This document shows positions 4,960-16,199 of a stretch of DNA of 64,000 nucleotides, piece after piece. This DNA comes from Lysobacter capsici (lineage in GTDB: Bacteria; Pseudomonadota; Gammaproteobacteria; Xanthomonadales; Xanthomonadaceae): contig NZ_CP094357.1 in assembly GCF_014779555.2 (NCBI RefSeq), positions 3,596,001 through 3,660,000 of the forward strand, read 5' to 3'. Within the stretch, counting starts at the first letter, position 1. Each line of letters begins with the position of its first letter. Made by a program: the position numbers and the translations under genes. Under the pieces are notes generated by a model. That model ran no database searches. It was not told the origin of the DNA and saw only the letters and a list, made by a program, of their open reading frames with translations.

Positions 4960-5419
4960 GTTCCTGCTGACGACACGTACGATATCGGCCCTGCAGGCTC
5001 TTTTAATCCGCTGCCGAAAAATTCGCCATCTGGTCCGCATGCGCTTCCACGAACGCTGGGCGACTCGTGCCGCGGGCTATGTAGTCGCGGCAAGCCGAGG
5101 CTCAATCAGTCGTTCGACCAGAGACAGCATCTCGCAGATGAGGGGGCGGCGACGAAGGACATCCGCGCCAGCCCACGCGCGCTGCACCAACACTGCCTCC
5201 ACGGGCTCCAGCGGCTTATTGACGGTAGAACAGGGGGCAGAGTGCAATTTTTTCAGCAGCTAAATTGCACTCTGACCCCTGTTTTCGATCAACTCGGGCA
5301 TGCGGCGTCTCCCGGTGTGGAGCGCCGTAATGTGCCGGCGCTGAAAATTGTGCCAACGGTAACGGTTGTGATTCGCGCGCTGTTAGCGCTAATGCATTTT
5401 GGGACCGAGTGCACCGATG
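4960..5419. other. Intergenic region with no convincing gene
   Basis: About 460 bases without a supported open frame. The only recognisable structure is the long inverted repeat at 5230-5282, described separately. The region could be the decayed edge of an insertion next to the AT-rich island. Confidence 0.5.
5230..5282. repeat. Palindromic repeat with near-perfect 21-bp arms
   Basis: The arms at 5230-5250 and 5262-5282 are reverse complements with a single mismatch, separated by an 11-base spacer. The core, ttgcactctgacccctg, is one I recognise as a dispersed gammaproteobacterial palindrome, often linked to REP-associated tyrosine transposases. It could also act as a transcription stop. No transposase gene is adjacent. 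Confidence 0.75.
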
Positions 5420-5659
5420 CTAGGACTCCAACGGCGTCACCGCCTGGGCGACGCAGTCGATCTCGTCGGCTAAGCGGTCGAAGCAGTGAGCCAGGGCGTC
5501 GGCGGAGAGGTAGACGACGTCGAGGCTGTTCCCGCCTTGGGGTTCGGTGAGTTGAGCTAGGAGGCGGAGTTGGTCGCGGATTTGGGTTAGAGCTAGGTGG
5601 GCCGCGGCGGGGAGCCGAAAAGTCTGAATTAGCGCTGGCATACGGCGTCTATCATTCAT
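5420..5659 (-). CDS. Small protein resembling the XAC0095 family
   Basis: A 79-residue protein: an N-terminal segment with FRLPAAAHLALTQIRDQL, then a helical, leucine-rich remainder. Short proteins of this type (Leu/Pro motif followed by an HLAL..LRDQL-like helix) are common in Xanthomonadaceae as XAC0095-like proteins of unknown function. The assignment is by resemblance only. It is transcribed towards the palindromic repeat, away from the AT-rich island. Confidence 0.6.
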   Translation of the reverse strand: MNDRRRMPALIQTFRLPAAAHLALTQIRDQLRLLAQLTEPQGGNSLDVVYLSADALAHCFDRLADEIDCVAQAVTPLES

Positions 5660-5765
5660 AAATGATCCTATGAGTCACGGTGCGCCTAATGCTAACCGTA
5701 GCTCGAGAGCATTCAAAATTCGAATAAACCGGAACCTTTCACACCCACCCGCACACCTCACGGCA

Positions 5766-6569
5766 TCAATTAAGCCGGTGATCCCAGGATCCAGATTTAA
5801 TCTTAAAATCGATTCCAACCGTGGCCCCCAACGGCCAGCCACTCTCATCTCGCCAAGTATCATCACGGACGGAATTAAGCAATTGGACATCTCGCTGCCC
5901 CGCCCTGCAAGACAACTCATAAACAACTTCTGTTTTCCAATTGACCCCCTCGAGACTGCGATAAGAAGTTATTATTTGCACATCAACTGACCGCCTCGCT
6001 GTCAACTCACTTAAAAAATAATCCAGATCCGCATCACGCAACTTCAATTCAATCGGCATTTCTTGAACACCGCCCTGCAATAAAGGCTCATCGATAGAAA
6101 GCGTGCAATATACTGCCCGCGTCCGAATTTTTATTTTTGCCAAAACATTGAGAGCGGCATCTGTAGTTTGATTTTGTAACCCTAGACTAAATTTTATAGA
6201 CATGGGATTTCCTTCAACATGCACATCAGGGCGGAAAGCTTCAACCCCCCCTTCTCTAGATAGCGACCCAAGCACTAATGGCTTCCTGGACTCTCGCCTA
6301 GAGCGCGACTCCACCCACAACGTGAGCGCAATTGCGCCCAGCGCCAAGCCAGAAAAAAGTGCGTTAATAGCACCGAACATATCTCCGACAGCGCCGAACG
6401 CCGATAGATCAGCGCATTTGTTTGCATCGCGCGTTGCGGCAACACAATCGGAAACTCCAGAACTCAAATAGGATGCAATGTGCGGAATAAGCAGCAGTGA
6501 GCCAAGCCATATACCAAAAACTGCAGCCACCGCAGTAAGCACCAAGAAAAATCGCAAAAGGCCACTCAT
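5766..6569 (-). CDS. Two-TM membrane protein resembling putative phage abortive-infection (putAbi) proteins
   Basis: The 267-residue protein has a first membrane helix at about 5-29 and a second at about 63-86. The second carries the pattern GDMFGAINALFSGLALGAI. A GD-F-G--NALFSGLA motif is typical of a large group of two-helix proteins often annotated as putative phage abortive infection proteins. Cys42 and Cys52 lie between the helices. The cytoplasmic or periplasmic remainder (about 90-267) is beta-rich with no recognised motif. Its ATG overlaps the DUF262 stop codon by one base, so the two are coupled. Base composition is clearly lower in GC than the window average, suggesting acquisition by transfer. 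Confidence 0.7.
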   Translation of the reverse strand: MSGLLRFFLVLTAVAAVFGIWLGSLLLIPHIASYLSSGVSDCVAATRDANKCADLSAFGAVGDMFGAINALFSGLALGAIALTLWVESRSRRESRKPLVLGSLSREGGVEAFRPDVHVEGNPMSIKFSLGLQNQTTDAALNVLAKIKIRTRAVYCTLSIDEPLLQGGVQEMPIELKLRDADLDYFLSELTARRSVDVQIITSYRSLEGVNWKTEVVYELSCRAGQRDVQLLNSVRDDTWRDESGWPLGATVGIDFKIKSGSWDHRLN

Positions 6570-8119
6570 TAGACTCCTCCTGGAATCACACGCCCGAACA
6601 TCTCCGCATACTTATCCGGCCCTCGCTCAAGGGAAGGCAAATCGATAAACTGGGTCTCATAGCGATCTTGCAATGCTTCTTGGCTAATCCCGTACGCCAT
6701 GGGGCTATGCTGAACCTTGGTGAGAGTACGATCGGACTCTCCAGACAGGACGATTAACTTATTGAAGCTGTCATGCACTCCGACTTTGACAAGTCGATTT
6801 CCCTCGATAATTCGAAAAGCAACCGAAGTTGCTTCATGAAGGGGGCGACCTGAAATAGGATCTATCGCGCCAGCACTAGCTAAAAGGCAAGCAAACGCTT
6901 TCATTGCCAAGCCGTTGCGCTTGGCCGGCTGTTCATAAATCGAGAAATCAGCTGCATATCTTTCTCTAGCTAAATCGCTTCCACGGCCTTGGAAAATTTG
7001 ATCCGCGTCAGAGACTACTTTAGTATTTGCAGCCTGTGAATAAGTCTGAGTAAATGCACTTCCCCAGAACCATCCTTTAAGCGCGTACTCATCCATGCCG
7101 TAGCGATCGCTAGCATGGAGCCATGCCGCCACCCCAAGGATCATTGCTGCGGATGGAATCACATCTGCGCAAAAAACCCCTAATTCTCTCTTCGCATATT
7201 TTAGCGCAGCTTCGTAGAGATTAACTGCAGGCCCCCACGCGTCGCGAATCCGCTGTTTATCGAGCTGTAACAAGTCCCCTTGGCGTACGCCTCTTGACTC
7301 ATTGCGCCCCGCTTCGCCGCGAATGAGTAATGCCACCAACTTAAGTACCTCCAAAGGATCCACACCGAACAGGCTAATAAGATCACAGCGATCTTGAGCG
7401 GCTTCCCATTCATCACGGAGATGAAAGCCAGTGGGATACATGATCGCAACAATCAAATCAAACGCATTAAGCTTTACTCCTGTTCGATTCAAAGTCTCAA
7501 AAATCCTGGCCAAGGCCTCCAACTGGATCTTCTGATCCAACTGAATACCCATAACCTTATAAACTTTTGCCTGGAGCCCAGCAAGCGAAGTTTCTCGCTG
7601 TTTCACATACAATCGTTGCAAGCGAGGATCTTCAATCTGCTCAAGCCAAGAGTAAAAATTATCAAGCTCCCAGACATCCGAAATAAGGGCGATCCGAGCA
7701 TCTGCGCGAGAAACAACCGATCCAAACTGCTTCTGAAAAGATTGTCGCCTATCCCACTTTATGTAATCTTCGCCATATTGCGTAAGAATATTAAAATCAA
7801 CATAGTAGCAAAAATCGGAAACATCATTGACGGCATGAAAAAGAGACGTGAGCCGTTGCTGGCCATCTAGGACATACAGATCTAACTCGCTATCTCCAAC
7901 TGGAGGCGCACTCTCGATGGCTCGTACACCAAAAGGCTGAGGCCCACTTAATAGCAGAAGCGAGCCGATCGGCCATTGTTTTGCGACGCTATCAAGTAGC
8001 TCTACGACGCGAGAGGGGTTCCAAACGAAATCGCGCTGAAAATCCGGAAGCGCCAAGCGCCCGGTACGAATCCACTGAATTAATTTATCTACAGAATACT
8101 GTACCGACTGGAACTCCAT
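6569..8119 (-). CDS. DUF262 domain protein (GmrSD-like, ParB-fold)
   Basis: The 516-residue protein opens with a DUF262 domain: LALPDFQRDFVW at 22-33 and LYVLDGQQRLTSLF at 81-94. DGQQR is the diagnostic nucleotide-handling motif of this ParB-like fold. DUF262 proteins include the GmrS/BrxU branch of type IV restriction enzymes and other phage-defence proteins. The C-terminal part contains NKLIVLSGESDRTLTK, which resembles the metal-finger segment of the DUF1524 HNH nuclease, but a full HNH triad is not evident, so this half may be degenerate. The gene is coupled to the downstream putAbi-like membrane gene. Role in defence is inferred from family and context. Confidence 0.8.
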   Translation of the reverse strand: MEFQSVQYSVDKLIQWIRTGRLALPDFQRDFVWNPSRVVELLDSVAKQWPIGSLLLLSGPQPFGVRAIESAPPVGDSELDLYVLDGQQRLTSLFHAVNDVSDFCYYVDFNILTQYGEDYIKWDRRQSFQKQFGSVVSRADARIALISDVWELDNFYSWLEQIEDPRLQRLYVKQRETSLAGLQAKVYKVMGIQLDQKIQLEALARIFETLNRTGVKLNAFDLIVAIMYPTGFHLRDEWEAAQDRCDLISLFGVDPLEVLKLVALLIRGEAGRNESRGVRQGDLLQLDKQRIRDAWGPAVNLYEAALKYAKRELGVFCADVIPSAAMILGVAAWLHASDRYGMDEYALKGWFWGSAFTQTYSQAANTKVVSDADQIFQGRGSDLARERYAADFSIYEQPAKRNGLAMKAFACLLASAGAIDPISGRPLHEATSVAFRIIEGNRLVKVGVHDSFNKLIVLSGESDRTLTKVQHSPMAYGISQEALQDRYETQFIDLPSLERGPDKYAEMFGRVIPGGV

Positions 8120-8455
8120 CTCTCCCCCAATAGTTCTGCTTAAGTGAAAAATTCACTCATAGCAAAAAGCAATAGCAACAAACTCCTATTAAAACTGATC
8201 CAACAGAATTCAACGATAAACGTTAAAAACGGCTATTCCACAATCTCATATTCAGACATTTCCTTTGCCGCAGACGGAAAGTCCACCGATCTCACCACCG
8301 ACAAAATGACTGATCCTTGCCTGATCAAGAGTCTTATCCACTCCGCCGCAGTTTAAGACAGCAGCAGGATCACAACTTTACCACCCAGAGACCTCAATCT
8401 GATCTCTATTTTCTGCACACCCATAATCTCAAACAATCATAATGCTGCGAAAATT
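8120..8455. other. AT-rich spacer inside the island
   Basis: This 336-base stretch separates the kinase/TPR pair from the DUF262/membrane pair. A 70-codon frame on the plus strand (8144-8356) has no ribosome binding site and runs against all its neighbours, so I do not call it. The spacer probably contains the promoter of the DUF262 gene and the end of the TPR transcript. Confidence 0.5.
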
Positions 8456-10012
8456 CTATTGAAGATCTCTGAGTTGCTCAATTCGTTGCTGCAACTCTTT
8501 GCTCGAAGCATTTAGCACGTCGAATTCAAAAATTGAGGCCATAGTTTTATCGGCTCGCATTCCACCGAATTTCAAACCCGCCTTATTAACAAGTGCCACG
8601 GCTTGCTCCATGTTCCCGAGTCTAGCTTCCTCAGCACTTTGGAAAAAAGTTGAAACCAATGCCGCAGTACGATCCTTCCTTTTCTCAATCATGTCACTAG
8701 ATTTTGCGTAACTAGCTCTACCATCTTCAATCAATCCTTGCCTATACAACAACAACCCGTTAGTAGCCAGCCAGACTACGTAGTTTGCCGCATCCTCATT
8801 AGGCATTCCCAACCGAGTAAATTCTTCCAATGCGTCGCCGACCTTACCTAGCGACGCCAAAGCAACCACCTTATTATTCTTCAAACCCCAAGATTCAGGA
8901 TTGGAAATCAACCCAAAATTAGCAATATCTAAACACATATGGAAGTCGCGAAGATATGTTGCTGCAATGAAGGAACCATGAATCGCGGGCTCGACCGAGA
9001 ATGGCTCGTAGCTCAACCACTCAATCGCATATTTTGCTGACTCAGCCCAAGCCCCCTTGTAGTACGCTTCCCATGAGCGAGCCTCAAACGCCAAGCTTGC
9101 TGATGCGACCACATCCTTTTGCACAATATCCGCATGCAGTTTCGAAGCGAGCCAAACCCCTTGCGCAAGAGCATTTTCCGTCGGTAGAAAGCTAGCCTCG
9201 CGAGCAATTACCTTTGCTTTTTTATTTCTTCCCAGAAGCATTTCTTGGGTAGCGAGCGCCATGCCCAACTCGGATGACTGGAGTCTATTCGTCAATTGCT
9301 CATACAGCCGACGAGCAACAGTAAGCTGACCGCTTTCTTCCCCCGACGCCTGCGCTACTGCTACATGAGCGGCCAACAGCCAGGGATCCTTACTGAAACC
9401 CTGAGCTCGGCGCAGTACTTTCGAAGCTGATTCAGGGTCACTTTGGTGCATATAGAATCGCGACGCGCTCCTTGCAATAACTCGATGAGATGAGCTGACT
9501 CTAAGAGCAACTAGCATGGCGCGCTCTGCCTTCCGTTGCTCCCCTAAAAGGTTATACATATAAGACAGATCATGCCAAGCAAAGGCATTCCCTGGAAACT
9601 CGACAACCCGCTTTCGCAGTCTAGAGACATAGCGACTGACGGCCTCCTTCTCAACTTTGACGCTCAAATCAAATTTAGCATTAGAAACAACTTCCGCGTC
9701 ATCGTGGAGTACATTAAGAGCTAAGCGCTGCAATCCTTTCGGAATCCTGTCACCCAGATCAAGAATTTCCCTTGAAAGATATGGCAAGTCATCTTTCTTG
9801 TCTTCTACCAAGGCAGTCGAAAAAAGATCAGCAAGATATCCGGCCGATCGATTATTTAGCCAATCCGCGCGTGCTTGTTCATACCAACCACTCAACGGTG
9901 ACCTTGATTTTCCTACACCTAACGGAGAAGCTTCAGCTGAAGTAGAAAAGGACGAAGAAGTCCGCCATCGAGGCAAAATTGACCTCTTAACCCCAGTCCA
10001 TATGACGCTCAT
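8456..10012 (-). CDS. TPR-repeat protein coupled to a Ser/Thr kinase
   Basis: The 518-residue protein has a low-complexity Ser-rich N-terminus (about 18-40). The rest is an alpha-helical array with tetratricopeptide character, for example AWHDLSYMYNLLGEQRKAER near 145 and repeated [LA]A..[EG]...A motifs to the end. No transmembrane segment or catalytic motif is visible. The start ATG overlaps the kinase stop codon (ATGA), so the pair is translationally coupled. TPR arrays usually bind proteins; the likely partner or substrate is the kinase itself or what it phosphorylates. AT-rich like its neighbours. Confidence 0.8.
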   Translation of the reverse strand: MSVIWTGVKRSILPRWRTSSSFSTSAEASPLGVGKSRSPLSGWYEQARADWLNNRSAGYLADLFSTALVEDKKDDLPYLSREILDLGDRIPKGLQRLALNVLHDDAEVVSNAKFDLSVKVEKEAVSRYVSRLRKRVVEFPGNAFAWHDLSYMYNLLGEQRKAERAMLVALRVSSSHRVIARSASRFYMHQSDPESASKVLRRAQGFSKDPWLLAAHVAVAQASGEESGQLTVARRLYEQLTNRLQSSELGMALATQEMLLGRNKKAKVIAREASFLPTENALAQGVWLASKLHADIVQKDVVASASLAFEARSWEAYYKGAWAESAKYAIEWLSYEPFSVEPAIHGSFIAATYLRDFHMCLDIANFGLISNPESWGLKNNKVVALASLGKVGDALEEFTRLGMPNEDAANYVVWLATNGLLLYRQGLIEDGRASYAKSSDMIEKRKDRTAALVSTFFQSAEEARLGNMEQAVALVNKAGLKFGGMRADKTMASIFEFDVLNASSKELQQRIEQLRDLQ

Positions 10013-11085
10013 CTCAACACCATTTTTGATTGAATTTCCGCTTTACGGCGCAAGTTGCCAAATCGGGAGACATACTTTCTAACATCATATTGCTCATCGG
10101 TCCGGCCAATGTGGCGTGGATCACCTCGCCTCAACGGATTTGGCTCACACAACTGCTTAATGATGGCAAGCACTGACACTGCTACATCTCCATCAAAGCA
10201 ATCGCTCATTTCTTCAAATGCCGAAGAATATGCGTCAACAATGAACGGTAGAACTTCTCTGTACGTCCCCCGCCACGATAGGTAGTCATGTTCTGCCGGG
10301 ATGTGTCGTTTGACAATCGCATTCATGCTCGCACCGGTGAACAAAAAAACCGCTAGGCTACCGAGTGAATAAAGATCCGCAGCAACCCGAGAAATTACCC
10401 AGTCGGCATTTTTCTCCCCATAAATTAACTCTGGCGGGGCTACCGACCATGCACCGGGCACCCGATTTCCATCTCTTGGGCAGGAAACGCCTTTACGAGA
10501 AGCGCAGCCAAGATCCGAAACCTTAAACCGAGAGGCGGATTCAAATGTCAACACATTCGAAGGCTTAATATCCTGATGCGCGACTTGCGCATAATGCAAT
10601 TGCTCCAACCCCAGAGCAACCTCATGCAATATACCCAAGGCCCAAGCAAGTTGAACCTGTCCAAATTCGACAAGAGCCTTGCGAAGATCCCCCTCTGCCG
10701 GCTCGAACAACAAATAAGGAACGCGACCGAGTTGCGAATCATCTACCTTTATATATCCACTATCCAGCGCAGTAACGACACGAGTCATTTTTCGATTTGC
10801 ACAGAAGCCGAGAAGCTCTTGTTCAAACTTAAACGCACTGACGGCTTCTTGTAGTGCGTGAAGAAGATCTTCCTCCTGCAATGCCTTCGAAAAATCTAGC
10901 GCTTTTAAGAAAGCAATCTCACCATTTTCTGAATTCTTTGCCAGATAGCCAATCGAAAAGAATGATCCGGTCTGACCATCCAATCGCTCTATACGATTAA
11001 CGACGCTCCAGCCTGAATCTAAATTCAACCCAGCGAGTCTCGCAGCTGGCGGCAACTCACCGTCATCTACACTCCCAAAGCCCAT
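10009..11085 (-). CDS. Hanks-type Ser/Thr protein kinase, soluble
   Basis: The 358-residue protein contains a complete kinase core: Lys61 in AFLKALD (VAIK lysine), catalytic loop AHQDIKPSNVL with Asp172, Lys174 and Asn177 (HRD replaced by HQD), metal-binding DLG at 191-193 in place of DFG, APPE at 217-220 in the APE position, and DLYSLG at 237-242. All catalytic residues are kept, so it should be active. The glycine loop is not obvious. There is no transmembrane helix or sensor domain, unlike PknB-type kinases. It is the first gene of the minus-strand island and is coupled to the TPR gene. Soluble stand-alone kinases in such islands are often phage-defence components; that role is inferred here. 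Confidence 0.85.
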   Translation of the reverse strand: MGFGSVDDGELPPAARLAGLNLDSGWSVVNRIERLDGQTGSFFSIGYLAKNSENGEIAFLKALDFSKALQEEDLLHALQEAVSAFKFEQELLGFCANRKMTRVVTALDSGYIKVDDSQLGRVPYLLFEPAEGDLRKALVEFGQVQLAWALGILHEVALGLEQLHYAQVAHQDIKPSNVLTFESASRFKVSDLGCASRKGVSCPRDGNRVPGAWSVAPPELIYGEKNADWVISRVAADLYSLGSLAVFLFTGASMNAIVKRHIPAEHDYLSWRGTYREVLPFIVDAYSSAFEEMSDCFDGDVAVSVLAIIKQLCEPNPLRRGDPRHIGRTDEQYDVRKYVSRFGNLRRKAEIQSKMVLR

Positions 11086-11511
11086 TTTAAGCCCCTGTCA
11101 TTTTCTATGTATCGTTAATATCTATTAGGCGAAACATAATACAACAAAGCCACATTATTGTTCGGCGCGGCGCTTTTAAAAGAACATGTAGACGGCTCGG
11201 ATTACACATTAATTATTACATAATGAGTGGAGCCATTGAGAGCCTTAAACACTCCTGTGATGCTCAAACGCAATAGGGTGCCGAACTAGGCCGCGAATTG
11301 ACGAGTCGTGCGTTCACCATGGATTCGGCGCGGGAAAAAGGTGGTGTTCTTAACTAAAGACATCTACGAAAATTCACCATACACCCGTTAGCGGCGCGCA
11401 TCCTCTTGCGAAAGGAGTGGCGGCAGCGTCTACGGCTAAAGCAAAAAGCCCCGCAGAAGCGAGGCCATCGATGAATCGACTCGTTGCCGTTAGTGAACCC
11501 GTTTCGCCCTA
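11086..11511. other. Boundary region between the AT-rich island and core genes
   Basis: About 426 bases without a supported gene. The first 130 bases upstream of the kinase are very AT-rich and probably hold the island promoter. Composition returns to high GC by about 11.5 kb. I found no tRNA gene, direct repeat or integrase that would define an attachment site. Confidence 0.5.
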
Positions 11512-12066
11512 TCACCGCCAATTGGCATGCGTCCGCCAAAATTCAACGCTGCGCAAATAAGCCGCCCGATCCAACCCCACCCCAGACCCACCCTCTTCCA
11601 CCCCAAGCGCATTACGCATCATCGTAATCGGCGCCATTGGCGTCTCGACCGGTTCGGCGGTGTACATGCAGCCGACCACGCCCCAGTCGGCGGTGGTGTC
11701 AGTGCCTTCTTTCGCCAGTTGTTCGCGGCTGTAGAGGATGACGATGAGGTAGTCGGCCACGGGCGGGTCGATGCCTTCGAACCAGCGCACCAGCACGGGC
11801 AGTTCGTCCTTGGTGCGCGCCTCGTAGTCGCTGCGCAGCAGGTGGCGGTTGGCGTCGGTGATCGGCGCAGTCAGGCAGCGGGTGCTGGTCCAGTTGCGGT
11901 GGACGTGCAGTTTGCAGAACGGGGCGTAGCCGTCGAGGACGGTCAGCGGCGGGACGTCGTTGAGGTGGCGCTCGAATTGCTCGGGCGTGATGTCCTGGAT
12001 GGTGTTGCGGCGCGGTTCGCGCGGGAACAGGCGGGCGCGGGCGAAGTCGGTGAGGATGATGGTCAT
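11512..12066 (-). CDS. DUF3228 family protein
   Basis: The 184-residue protein is recognised from its highly conserved blocks, such as NTIQDITPEQFERHLN, CKLHVHRNWTSTRCLTAPI and PITMMRNALGVEEGGSG. These match the DUF3228 family, which is widespread in proteobacteria and of unknown function. Length is typical. The ATG at 12066 begins the conserved region (MTIILTDFARARLFPR); the open frame upstream is low-complexity Arg/Pro and not part of the protein. Confidence 0.85.
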   Translation of the reverse strand: MTIILTDFARARLFPREPRRNTIQDITPEQFERHLNDVPPLTVLDGYAPFCKLHVHRNWTSTRCLTAPITDANRHLLRSDYEARTKDELPVLVRWFEGIDPPVADYLIVILYSREQLAKEGTDTTADWGVVGCMYTAEPVETPMAPITMMRNALGVEEGGSGVGLDRAAYLRSVEFWRTHANWR

Positions 12067-12540
12067 GGGGGGATTATCGGGCAGCGCGCGCCGGGCCGTC
12101 TGGGGCGGGTCGACTGCTCTGTGTTTTCGGGCGACGGCGCGTTTGCGTCCGCGGATGGGCTTGTGCGGAGGCCGCCTTTTCGGCGGCGGCTGCGGTGCTG
12201 TCGCGGCCCACCCGGCGTGGCCCGGTATCCGCGGCCACCGGTCAGATCGCTCCGGAGCCATCGATCCATGCGTACAGTCCGCTGATTTCGCGATCCGGCG
12301 ATTGCTCGGCGTCCATCGAGAACAACTGCCAATGGGCTTCGCGGCCTGGCGGCAGCGGGATGCATGAAATCCCGGGGGCCTTGATCGAGCAAGGCCGCTA
12401 TGCGGTTGGCGGTTACGCGACGGCCCGGCTCGTGGGGTTGTGTGAAATCGGCGGGTGGGGTTGCGCCGGCGGTTGTGGGGGCGTGGTCGCGGCTTGCGCC
12501 GCTCCTACAGTCGGGTGCCGGGCTGTGTCGTGGTTGCAAT
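12067..12540. other. Intergenic region with one dispersed REP-like copy
   Basis: No gene is supported in these 474 bases. At 12485-12510 lies one copy of the dispersed element ggcttgcgccgctcctacag. The same element occurs in the 211-bp tandem array near 36.3-36.7 kb and, with one change, at 51412-51436. Confidence 0.6.
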
Positions 12541-12584: not shown

Positions 12585-15500
12585 TTACATGTTGCGTCGG
12601 TATTCGCCACCTACGTCGTACAAGGCGTGGCTGATCTGGCCGAGGCTGTGGGTCTTCACCGCTTCCATCAAGGACGCGAACACGTTCTTGCGGTCGCGCG
12701 CGGCGGCCTGCAGGCTGCGCAGGCCTTCGCTGGCGTAGTCGTTGCGGCCTTGCTGGTACGACAGCACGTTGTCGATCTGCTGGCCCTTTTCTTCGGGGGT
12801 CGAGCGGATCAGTTCGATCTCGGTGACGATGTCGCCGCCGTGGTCCTTCGGCAGGAAGGTGTTGACGCCGACCAGCGGCAGGCTGCCGTCGTGCTTCTTG
12901 TGTTCGTAGTAGAGGCTTTCTTCCTGGATCTTGCCGCGCTGGTACATGGTGTCCATGGCGCCGAGCACGCCGCCGCGCTCGCTGATGGCTTCGAATTCCT
13001 TGTACACGGCTTCTTCGACGATGTCGGTGAGGTAGTCGACGGCGAAGCTGCCCTGCCAGGGGTTTTCGTTGAAGTTGAGGCCCAGTTCCTTGTTGATGAT
13101 CATCTGGATCGCGACCGCGCGGCGCACGCTTTCTTCGGTCGGGGTGGTGATGGCTTCGTCGTAGGCGTTGGTGTGCAGGCTGTTGCAGTTGTCGAACAGC
13201 GCGTACAGGGCCTGCAAGGTGGTGCGGATGTCGTTGAACTGGATTTCCTGCGCGTGCAGGGACCGGCCGCTGGTCTGGATGTGGTACTTCATCATCTGGC
13301 TGCGCGGGTCGGCGCCGTAGCGCTCGCGCATGGCGCGGGCCCAGATGCGGCGGGCGACGCGGCCGATGACGGTGTACTCCGGGTCCATGCCGTTGCTGAA
13401 GAAGAACGACAGGTTGGGCGCGAAGTCGTCGATCTTCATCCCGCGGGCGAGGTAGTACTCGACGATGGTGAAGCCGTTGCTCAGGGTGAAGGCGAGCTGG
13501 CTGATCGGGTTCGCGCCGGCTTCGGCGATGTGATAACCGCTGATCGACACCGAGTAGAAATTGCGGACGTTCTTGTCGACGAAGTACTGCTGGATGTCGC
13601 CCATCATGCGCAGGGCGAATTCGGTGCTGAAGATGCAGGTGTTCTGGGCCTGGTCTTCTTTCAGGATGTCGGCCTGGACGGTGCCGCGCACGGTGGCGAG
13701 GGTCTTGTCCTTGATGCGCTGGTAGGTTTCGGCGTCGACGACCTGGTCGCCGGTGATGCCCAGCAGGCCCAGGCCGAGGCCGTCGTTGGTTTCGGGCAGC
13801 AGGCCGCTATATTGCGGGCGCTTGCGGTCCTTGAAGATGGCTTCGATCTTGTCGTGCGCGGCGTCCCAGCGGGCGCCGTCTTCGCGCAGGTATTTCTCGA
13901 CCTGCTGGTCGATGGCGGTGTTCATGAACATCGCCAGCAGCATCGGCGCTGGGCCGTTGATGGTCATCGACACCGACGTGGTCGGCGCGCACAGGTCGAA
14001 GCCGGAGTACAGCTTCTTCATGTCGTCCAGGGACGCGATGTTGACGCCGGAGTTGCCGATCTTGCCGAAGATGTCCGGGCGCACGGCGGGGTCTTCGCCG
14101 TACAGGGTGACGCTGTCGAACGCGGTCGACAGGCGCGCGGCGGGCTGGCCGACCGACAGGTAATGGAAGCGGCGGTTGGTGCGCTCGGGCGTGCCTTCGC
14201 CAGCGAACATGCGGATCGGGTCTTCGCCGGTGCGGCGGTACGGGTACACGCCGCCGGTGTAGGGGTAGTAGCCGGGCAGGTTTTCTTTTTGCAGGAAGGT
14301 CAGCAGTTCGCCCCAGCTCTTGTAGGTGGGCGCGGCGATCTTCGGGATTTTCTGGTGGCTCAGGGAGTCGCGGTAGTTTTCGACGCGGATGGCTTTGCCG
14401 CGGACTTCGTATTCGGTGATGTCGTCGGTGATGGATTTCAGGCGCGCGGGCCAGTCGCGCAAGAGCTTGAGGGCTTCGGACGAGAGGGTCTGGACGGCGT
14501 CGTTGTAGCGTTGGCGCAGGGTCAGCAGGGTGCGGTCTGCGGTGATCGGGCTGCCCTCACCCGCGCCTTCGGCGCGACCTCTCCCGCTTGCGGGAGAGGT
14601 ATTCGACGCAGTTTGGGTGTTCGAAGCAGTTGGGGTGTTCGACGCGACGGAGGTATTCGACGCGGCTCCTGCTCCCTCTCCCGCTTGCGGGAGAGGGCTG
14701 GGGTGAGGGTGCGAAGCCAACAACGCATCGGCGGCGAACAAGTCCAGCGCCTTCGGCAACTCCGGATCGTTCAGATCGTGCAGCGACTGCCAATACGACT
14801 GCGCGCGATCGGCGACTTCCGACTGGCTTTCGATCTGACGATTGATCGACCGGCCCTGCTCCGCGATCTCGGCGAGGTAACGCACCCGCGCGCCGGGAAT
14901 CAGCACGGTCGCGCGCGGCTCCTTCAACGAAGTGTCGACGTCGGGCGTCCACTTCTCGGCCGGCAGCGAGAGTTTCTCGCGCAGCAGGCGGCACAGGTTG
15001 ACGAACATCCAGCTGATGCCGGGGTCGTTGAACTGGCTGGCGATGGTCGGGTAGACCGGCACGTCTTCGTCGGGCGTGGCGAAGGCGACGCGGTTGCGCT
15101 TCCACTGTTTGCGCACGTCGCGCAGCGCGTCTTCGGCGCCGCGCTTGTCGAACTTGTTGAGCACGACCAGTTCGGCGTAGTCGAGCATGTCGATCTTTTC
15201 CAGCTGGCTCGGCGCGCCGAAGTCGCTGGTCATGACGTACATGGGGAAGTCGACGAGGTCGACGATTTCCGAATCGCTCTGGCCGATGCCGGCGGTTTCG
15301 ACGATGACCAGGTCGTAGCCCAGGCCGCGCAGGAAGCCGATGCAGTCCTTGAGCACGGTGTTGGTGGCCGAGTGCTGGCGGCGGGTGGCCATCGAGCGCA
15401 TGTACACGCGCGGGCTGCGCAGCGAGTTCATGCGGATGCGGTCGCCGAGCAAGGCGCCGCCGGTGCGGCGACGGGTCGGGTCGACCGAGATCACCGCCAT

Positions 15501-16199
15501 GCGCATGTCGGGGAAATTGGCGAGGAAGCGGTTGAGCAGTTCGTCGGTGACCGAGGACTTGCCGGCGCCGCCGGTGCCGGTGATGCCGACCACCGGGGTC
15601 TTGCCGCCGGCGAGCTGCCACTGCTTGCGCAGGTGCGCGAGCTGGCTTTCGTCGAGCAGGCCTTCCTCGATCGCCGAGAGCATCTTGCCGATGGTGATTT
15701 CGTCGTCGATCGCGGCCGGCTTGTCGGGCGTGGTGTCGGCCTGGCGGCCTTCGCTGGCGCGGCGCACGACGTCTTCGATCATCGCCACCAGGCCCATGTG
15801 CATGCCGTCGTTGGGATGGTAGATGCGCTCGACACCGTAGGCCTGCAGTTCGCGGATTTCCTCGGGCGTGATGGTACCGCCGCCGCCGCCGAACACGCGG
15901 ATGTGGCCGGCGCCGCGCTCGCGCAGCATGTCGACCATGTACTTGAAGTATTCGACGTGACCGCCCTGATAGCTGGACAGCGCGATGCCGTCGGCGTCTT
16001 CCTGCAGCGCGGCGCGCACGACGTCTTCGACCGAGCGGTTGTGGCCGAGGTGGACGACTTCGGCGCCCTGCCCCTGGATCAGGCGACGCATGATGTTGAT
16101 CGCGGCATCGTGGCCGTCGAACAGGCTGGCGGCGGTGACGAATCGCAGCGGGGTGGCGTCGGCCTGGGCGGCGGGAAGGTTGGCTGCAGTCGTGCTCAT
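12585..16199 (-). CDS. icmF: Fused acyl-CoA mutase IcmF (isobutyryl/isovaleryl-CoA mutase with G-protein chaperone)
   Basis: The 1204-residue protein has the domain order of IcmF. The B12-binding domain comes first, with [10 protein letters not shown] at 25-34 (His30 is the expected cobalt ligand). Next is a MeaI-type GTPase with P-loop GTGGAGKS at 208-215 and NKFD at 348-351. The catalytic mutase domain runs from about 600 to the end ([32 protein letters not shown]). The family interconverts isobutyryl-CoA and n-butyryl-CoA, and some members act on isovaleryl/pivalyl-CoA, using adenosylcobalamin. An odd feature is a roughly 58-residue insertion at about 496-553 in the linker, encoded by a palindromic repeat element (see 14554-14709); the frame stays open. 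No cobalamin riboswitch was recognised upstream. The location beside leucine-degradation genes fits branched-chain acyl-CoA metabolism. Confidence 0.93.
14554..14709. repeat. Palindromic repeat element inserted in frame within icmF
   Basis: The element is bounded by ccctcaccc and gggtgaggg. It contains two copies of the hairpin ctctcccgcttgcgggagag. Between them are four imperfect 18-bp tandem units, each encoding a six-residue ASNTxx motif. The same hairpin family occurs intergenically at 27311-27479 and 59626-59674. Translated, it adds Pro/Ser/Gly/Ala-rich residues to the IcmF linker without breaking the frame. Confidence 0.85.

Follow-up and report, generated by a model that had tools for sequence, protein, structure and literature searches.

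A 64,000-nt stretch of the Lysobacter capsici genome (NZ_CP094357.1, positions 3,596,001 to 3,660,000; here, the window) carries an AT-rich block of four genes that encode a Ser/Thr protein kinase, a tetratricopeptide repeat (TPR)-like protein, a DUF262 protein, and a membrane protein with two predicted transmembrane (TM) segments. We favor, with moderate confidence, the reading that this block came in by horizontal transfer as a single cargo at a chromosomal hotspot and that it holds two functionally separate two-gene defense modules, a kinase-TPR pair and a DUF262-two-TM pair. Judging from genomic context, both modules probably protect the cell against viruses.

Genomic comparisons indicate that the two pairs are separable. 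Among 26 TPR loci other than the window's, a DUF262 relative was present in the fetched flank of only one (L026, from Cellulomonas), three of the contigs being only about 4 kb long. In another genome (L097), an 18-kb stretch with a DUF262-TM pair contained no relative of kinase-TPR. Because of the single match among the 26 loci and the lone pair in L097, each pair can be said to exist alone, and the pairs have met at least twice. The original prediction had envisaged a sensor/kinase module signaling to a nuclease or membrane effector, a proposal that would suffer if the four genes were not found together in other genomes. Co-occurrence was lacking at 25 of the 26 other TPR loci and was found in L026, and the data favor two modules. 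These comparisons give no support to one system of four genes, and what looked like a suggestive four-gene island resolves into two testable two-gene modules.

Layout and chromosomal site of the cargo

When the open reading frames (ORFs) were re-derived, the four genes, their strands and coordinates, and both overlaps agreed with the original prediction. The kinase and TPR genes share a 4-nt ATGA overlap, the DUF262 and membrane protein genes overlap by 1 nt, and all four lie on the minus strand. The region is organized as follows.

5612..11436, no strand: variable cargo flanked by anchors common to congeners (DNA comparison)
5766..6569, minus strand: membrane protein, 267 aa; hydrophobic at the N terminus (two segments, with GDMFGAINALFSG; hydropathy), the following 175 aa or so matching no family
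6569..8119, minus strand: DUF262 (GmrSD_N) protein, 516 aa; QR, DGQQR, and FxxxN kept, HNH motif lost (PF03235)
8120..8455, no strand: intergenic gap parting the two gene pairs, 336 nt, GC 0.414
8456..10012, minus strand: TPR-like partner, PDC-M71B-like, 518 aa, with an N-terminal R-x3-PRWR-T motif (PDC-M71B match)
10009..11085, minus strand: Ser/Thr protein kinase, PDC-M71A-like, 358 aa (Pkinase and PDC-M71A matches)
11512..12261, minus strand: DUF3228 gene, conserved anchor (PF11539, E = 4.9e-61; DNA kept in 4 of 4 congeners)
12585..16199, minus strand: icmF-type fused methylmalonyl/isobutyryl-CoA mutase gene, conserved anchor (DNA likeness to the L018 gene)

The block had also been described, correctly, as clearly lower in G+C content (GC) than its surroundings. 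From 5603 to 11436 the GC is 0.477, compared with 0.664 elsewhere in the window; equally long stretches (5,834 nt) taken from 11436 to the window end had a mean of 0.672 (standard deviation, 0.014; minimum, 0.630). The four cargo genes are alike in GC (0.478 to 0.484), and their third codon positions have a GC of 0.44 to 0.46, versus 0.82 in the DUF3228 gene and 0.90 in the icmF-type gene. Shared cargo and shared composition favor joint arrival of the two pairs, not necessarily a joint mechanism. Promoter-like sites between 5400 and 11600 were not in excess (4, against a shuffle mean of 6.7), a terminator scan likewise gave no clear excess over shuffles, and no convincing att repeats were found within 5200 to 11700.

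We compared the site at the DNA level with four congeners (G288, G258, G272, and G300). The anchor on the icmF-DUF3228 side, from 11437 or 11516 onwards, is conserved in all four, and the opposite anchor, a short stretch near 5439 to 5611, is conserved in three. Between the anchors every congener carries other cargo, each with an AT-rich stretch: AriA/AriB-like genes (PARIS) in G288, a close congener (locus L114, 4890 to 7100); an OLD-like ATPase gene and a gene with ATPase matches below cut-off in G258; a DndB-like gene, an unmatched gene, and a PIN-domain (PIN_12) gene in G272 (L116, 7847 to 11262); and a zeta-toxin gene together with a gene with ATPase matches below cut-off in G300. Moreover, a kinase-TPR pair in Arenimonas (L018) adjoins the mutase gene; an Mrr-type gene lies downstream, and DUF262 gave no match there. 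Because the regions between conserved anchors differ among congeners and hold partly defense-type genes, and because the Arenimonas pair lies beside the mutase gene, the icmF-DUF3228 site is, on DNA comparison, a cargo hotspot with partly defense-type content, and it can be marked as such in this genus.

The window's mutase gene, which we take to be icmF, has DNA pieces 80 to 87% identical to the L018 gene, itself matching MM_CoA_mutase and MeaB; its DNA was not found at E = 1e-100 in a family relative (G365). Just outside the cargo, at 5229 to 5283, lies a 22-nt inverted repeat with an 11-nt spacer, and a related stretch occurs in L114. Farther out, a plus-strand ORF at 246 to 1511 presumably encodes a protein resembling secreted alpha-lytic-type serine proteases.

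The kinase-TPR pair

The kinase matched Pkinase in the curated family search (E = 3.5e-15) and the PADLOC model PDC-M71A nearly throughout (E = 6.5e-108; residues 13 to 353 on 8 to 349 of 352). Its partner matched PDC-M71B (E = 3.5e-87; residues 1 to 473 on 1 to 482 of 515); TPR family matches fell below curated cut-offs, and a PDB sequence search with the TPR profile returned generic TPR proteins. As far as our searches show, the pair is an existing database candidate (PDC-M71) that is widespread and uncharacterized, and neither a published functional description of it nor a paper carrying the name PDC-M71 was found in the open-license PMC literature. The original prediction knew of no described system with this set of genes; for all four together that holds, as far as the literature was searched, but the kinase-TPR half is an already catalogued PADLOC candidate.

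Relatives of the TPR protein were found in three of the order's 397 genomes (the window's genome counted), in three plasmid matches only, and at 21 loci among 84,980 species genomes, an undercount given that this last search used two peptide patterns only. None was found in viral contigs (two patterns) or phage records. A TPR ORF was obtained at 25 of the 26 other loci (L038, a partial TPR match, is not among them), and at 23 of the 25, spread over many phyla, a kinase gene lies directly upstream on the same strand, with a gap of -145 to +8 nt; one of the two exceptions, L025, is a sequence that ends 117 nt upstream of the TPR gene. For comparison of the partners we used 23 pairs, including the window's and leaving out L031, where the kinase is split in two ORFs. 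In that locus (8562 to 9617) the split kinase gene, perhaps frameshifted, lies beside a pAgo-SIR2 gene.

All 23 kinases retain K61, E88, H170, D172, N177, D191, and G193. Distances among the kinases were correlated with those among their TPR partners (r = 0.747, 0 of 5,000 permutations; r = 0.704 without the near-duplicate L030), a correlation that shared ancestry of entire genomes can strengthen. In the N-terminal R-x3-PR motif of the TPR protein, R10, P14, and R15 were invariant in all 21 rows of alignment A7 and W16 nearly so, while the residue after PRWR was Ser or Thr at 17 of the 24 loci with a parsed motif. These comparisons give the candidate pair a defined anatomy, in which pairing is near-constant, the active site is preserved, and the TPR protein bears a conserved N-terminal tail.

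Selected neighbors were scanned at 18 TPR loci, L026 not being counted. In these raw, uncontrolled counts, defense- or toxin-antitoxin-type genes occurred at seven loci (L018, L019, L028, L031, L032, L034, and L035), and only integrase or mobilization genes at four (L009, L024, L029, and L030). The defense-type neighbors comprised a SAVED effector, type I and type ISP restriction-modification genes, pAgo, an AbiLi-like gene, Mrr, and HipA. Evidence for the defense role foreseen in the original prediction is contextual throughout, consisting of the PADLOC candidate models, the variable site, and the neighbors at these seven loci.

In the module that we propose, an active Ser/Thr kinase would be restrained, or aimed at a target, by its TPR partner. 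The N-terminal motif of the partner (R-x3-PRWR-S/T) may dock into the kinase or serve as its phosphosite, and the TPR superhelix would sense an infection cue. Once activated, the kinase might phosphorylate essential host or phage proteins and thereby stop growth (abortive infection), acting by analogy as an antiviral toxin.

The DUF262 protein and its membrane partner

The DUF262 protein matched GmrSD_N/DUF262 (PF03235) with an E value of 5.2e-30, and its alignments retain the QR, DGQQR, and FxxxN motifs associated with nucleoside triphosphates (NTPs). No HHxFP was present in the alignments, however, and the second Asn position reads differently. The GmrSD/BrxU-like assignment made earlier is borne out by the domain and its motifs and breaks down at the HNH motif; because that motif is lost, the proposed role as a nuclease effector is unlikely for this protein. 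A PDB sequence search gave one weak match, 7p9k, a DUF262 protein that we take to be BrxU. The PADLOC model PDC-M55C matched at E = 1.6e-27 over residues 10 to 370 only, and other PDC-M55 models were absent from the membrane, TPR, and kinase proteins among the matches listed (for the kinase, the best 25 of 33). On plasmids, 73 records matched the window protein and 70 the L026 protein, four of which were inspected closely. A single-sequence search of viral contigs returned no relative, while a two-row alignment returned two weak partial ones (L064 and L065), which fall outside the E filter of the comparison set described next.

That set, which took in the window's own protein, consisted of 50 distinct DUF262 relatives of at least 400 aa with E no higher than 1e-10. 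An HHxFP-like motif was kept in 43 of them and absent from 7. By a crude test, in which many loci had 1.5-kb flanks only, three of the seven HNH-less genes abut a short TM-protein gene with a 1- or 4-nt overlap, versus 2 of the 43 HNH-bearing genes, both without overlap (Fisher P = 0.016, kinship ignored). The three are those of the window, of Cellulomonas L026, and of L068/L097, whose genome belongs to the L026 order. Their proteins also fell into one clade in a FastTree phylogeny of window residues 1 to 400 (local support, 0.87), a grouping that fits a single loss of HNH. Only these three HNH-less clade members were found among the 50 relatives examined; loci were obtained for 30 of the 48 rows in one relative search, and the true number may be higher.

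The idea that HNH loss is unique to this group was dropped, as four further HNH-less DUF262 genes were recovered (L092, L093, L095, and L096). Two of them, both in genomes from the order of L026, overlap by 4 nt with the gene that comes next. In L093 (3108 to 3320) that gene starts as a HipA N-terminal domain (Pfam, 3.3e-6), and in L095 (3069 to 3284) it has no family match. DUF262 next to a HipA-type kinase may represent another pairing.

The membrane protein has hydropathy segments at 1 and 64 and contains GDMFGAINALFSG, as had been claimed. No family scored above its curated cut-off in library searches, putAbiC (PF16872) gave no match up to E = 1, and a PDB sequence search gave none. Calling the protein putAbi-like is apt for its TM segment GDxFGxxNALFSG, common to L011, which has a putAbiC domain (1e-23), but not for its domain content. 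Relatives were found in three other genomes of the 397 in the order, where the match is a 42- to 52-residue TM stretch only, and at four viral loci; no plasmid relatives of this protein or of the L026 TM protein were found. Among the ORFs compared, the only match to the C-terminal 175 aa was that sequence itself. The TM proteins of L026 and L097 are weakly related to each other (E of about 1e-4 to 1e-5).

For this second module, we suggest that the DUF262 protein binds and hydrolyzes NTP and senses non-self, probably modified, DNA in the manner of GmrSD, BrxU, and SspE. Lacking the HNH motif, it is not expected to cut and may instead switch its membrane partner, which would be the likeliest output of the module and would impair the membrane.

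Competing readings and comparison with known systems

Several observations weigh against two separate defense modules. At 7 of the 18 scanned TPR loci (L008, L020, L021, L022, L033, L036, and L037), neither defense- nor mobility-type genes were among the tested neighbors. One TPR gene (L023) has no kinase, and the N-terminal motif deviates in two relatives from the order that lie outside A7 (SRWRS in L008 and PIWLP in L009). For the second module, the crude TM-neighbor test left four of the seven HNH-less genes without a TM neighbor, and the support for the clade is moderate. The best BLAST match of the window's DUF262 protein among six compared was the HNH-bearing L039 (196 bits, versus 187 for L026), and a structure model from a two-row alignment was unusable (mean predicted local distance difference test score, 38.8). 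The window's TM protein has no detectable similarity to those of L026 and L097, where the gene order is reversed. Finally, both pairs do co-occur in L026, and the four window genes share strand and GC, which leaves room for cooperation.

Such cooperation could take the form of one system in which infection sensed by the TPR protein activates the kinase, the kinase phosphorylates the DUF262 or membrane protein, and the membrane effector opens. A single cargo of uniform GC would suit this, as would the Cellulomonas locus, in which a DUF262-TM pair of the same HNH-less clade lies 0.5 kb from kinase-TPR in a different phylum, the more so since so few clade members were seen. We nevertheless consider it unlikely, because 25 of 26 other TPR loci lack a DUF262 match in the fetched flank, L097 has the DUF262-TM pair without kinase-TPR, and the pairs lie on opposite strands in L026 and are parted by 336 nt in the window. 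It seems improbable, too, that kinase-TPR phosphorylates a nuclease-dead DUF262 NTPase that then opens a two-TM effector, with the Cellulomonas locus as an independent assembly of the same four-protein immunity circuit; if true, a former restriction enzyme would have turned into a signal relay to the membrane.

The remaining alternatives concern one pair each. Kinase-TPR might be mainly an addiction module, with the kinase as toxin and the TPR protein as antitoxin, and only incidentally antiviral. Many toxin-antitoxin operons place the antitoxin gene first, whereas here the kinase gene comes first; the TPR protein is also larger than the kinase, and the defense-type neighbors speak for another role. 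We give this possibility a lesser chance, although the overlapping two-gene layout, the carriage on plasmids and in a hotspot, and a kinase-as-toxin precedent in KKP (kinase-kinase-phosphatase; PMC11341870) speak for it. More doubtful is a reading of the DUF262-two-TM pair as a type IV restriction gene in decay that happens to adjoin a membrane gene unrelated to it. In its favor, the DUF262 protein has lost the HNH motif, its C-terminal part aligns like the degenerate remains of a nuclease end, and no full-length relative of the window's TM protein was detected. Yet the DUF262 ORF is intact at 516 aa, keeps its NTP motifs, and overlaps the TM gene, and two actinobacterial clade members show the same combination with a 4-nt overlap.

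Among known systems, PDC-M71 is matched nearly full length by both window proteins, whose genes are likewise adjacent on the same strand, but it is a candidate only, without a functional description in the literature searched. KKP shares with the window a Ser/Thr kinase in a mobile defense module and, according to PMC11341870, provides a precedent for such a kinase as an antiviral toxin; it differs in that the window has one kinase, a TPR partner, and no phosphatase match among the four proteins. The likeness to putAbiC proteins (PF16872) lies in the TM segment, whereas the window protein lacks a putAbiC match and its C-terminal part has no relatives among the ORFs compared.

With GmrSD, BrxU, SspE, and GrwA (DUF262 plus DUF1524 restriction), the window protein shares an N-terminal DUF262 domain and the QR, DGQQR, and FxxxN motifs, named as DUF262 motifs in PMC12137116. 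These known proteins tie NTP binding and sensing of DNA modification to a nuclease (PMC10952713 and PMC12137116), whereas the window protein lacks the HNH/DUF1524 catalytic motif and its gene is coupled to a membrane-protein gene. The same two papers describe DUF262 proteins without DUF1524 in Menshen, PD-T4-2, and Dazbog, and GrwB and TgvA as pairing with a nuclease-bearing DUF262 partner. Like these multigene systems, the window has a DUF262 protein without a DUF1524 nuclease domain, which shows weak PADLOC matches to NsnA (1.7e-8) and PD-T4-2_A (8.6e-8). Unlike theirs, its partner is a two-TM protein, and neither an OLD nuclease (the Menshen-type partner) nor a second DUF262 gene was found among the four window proteins by family or PADLOC search. 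No published description of DUF262 with a two-TM partner was found, judged by titles and abstract openings. The new part, as the sequences suggest, is a nuclease-dead DUF262 protein with a membrane partner; if this is true, a restriction-type sensor would have given up its nuclease and would work through the membrane protein instead.

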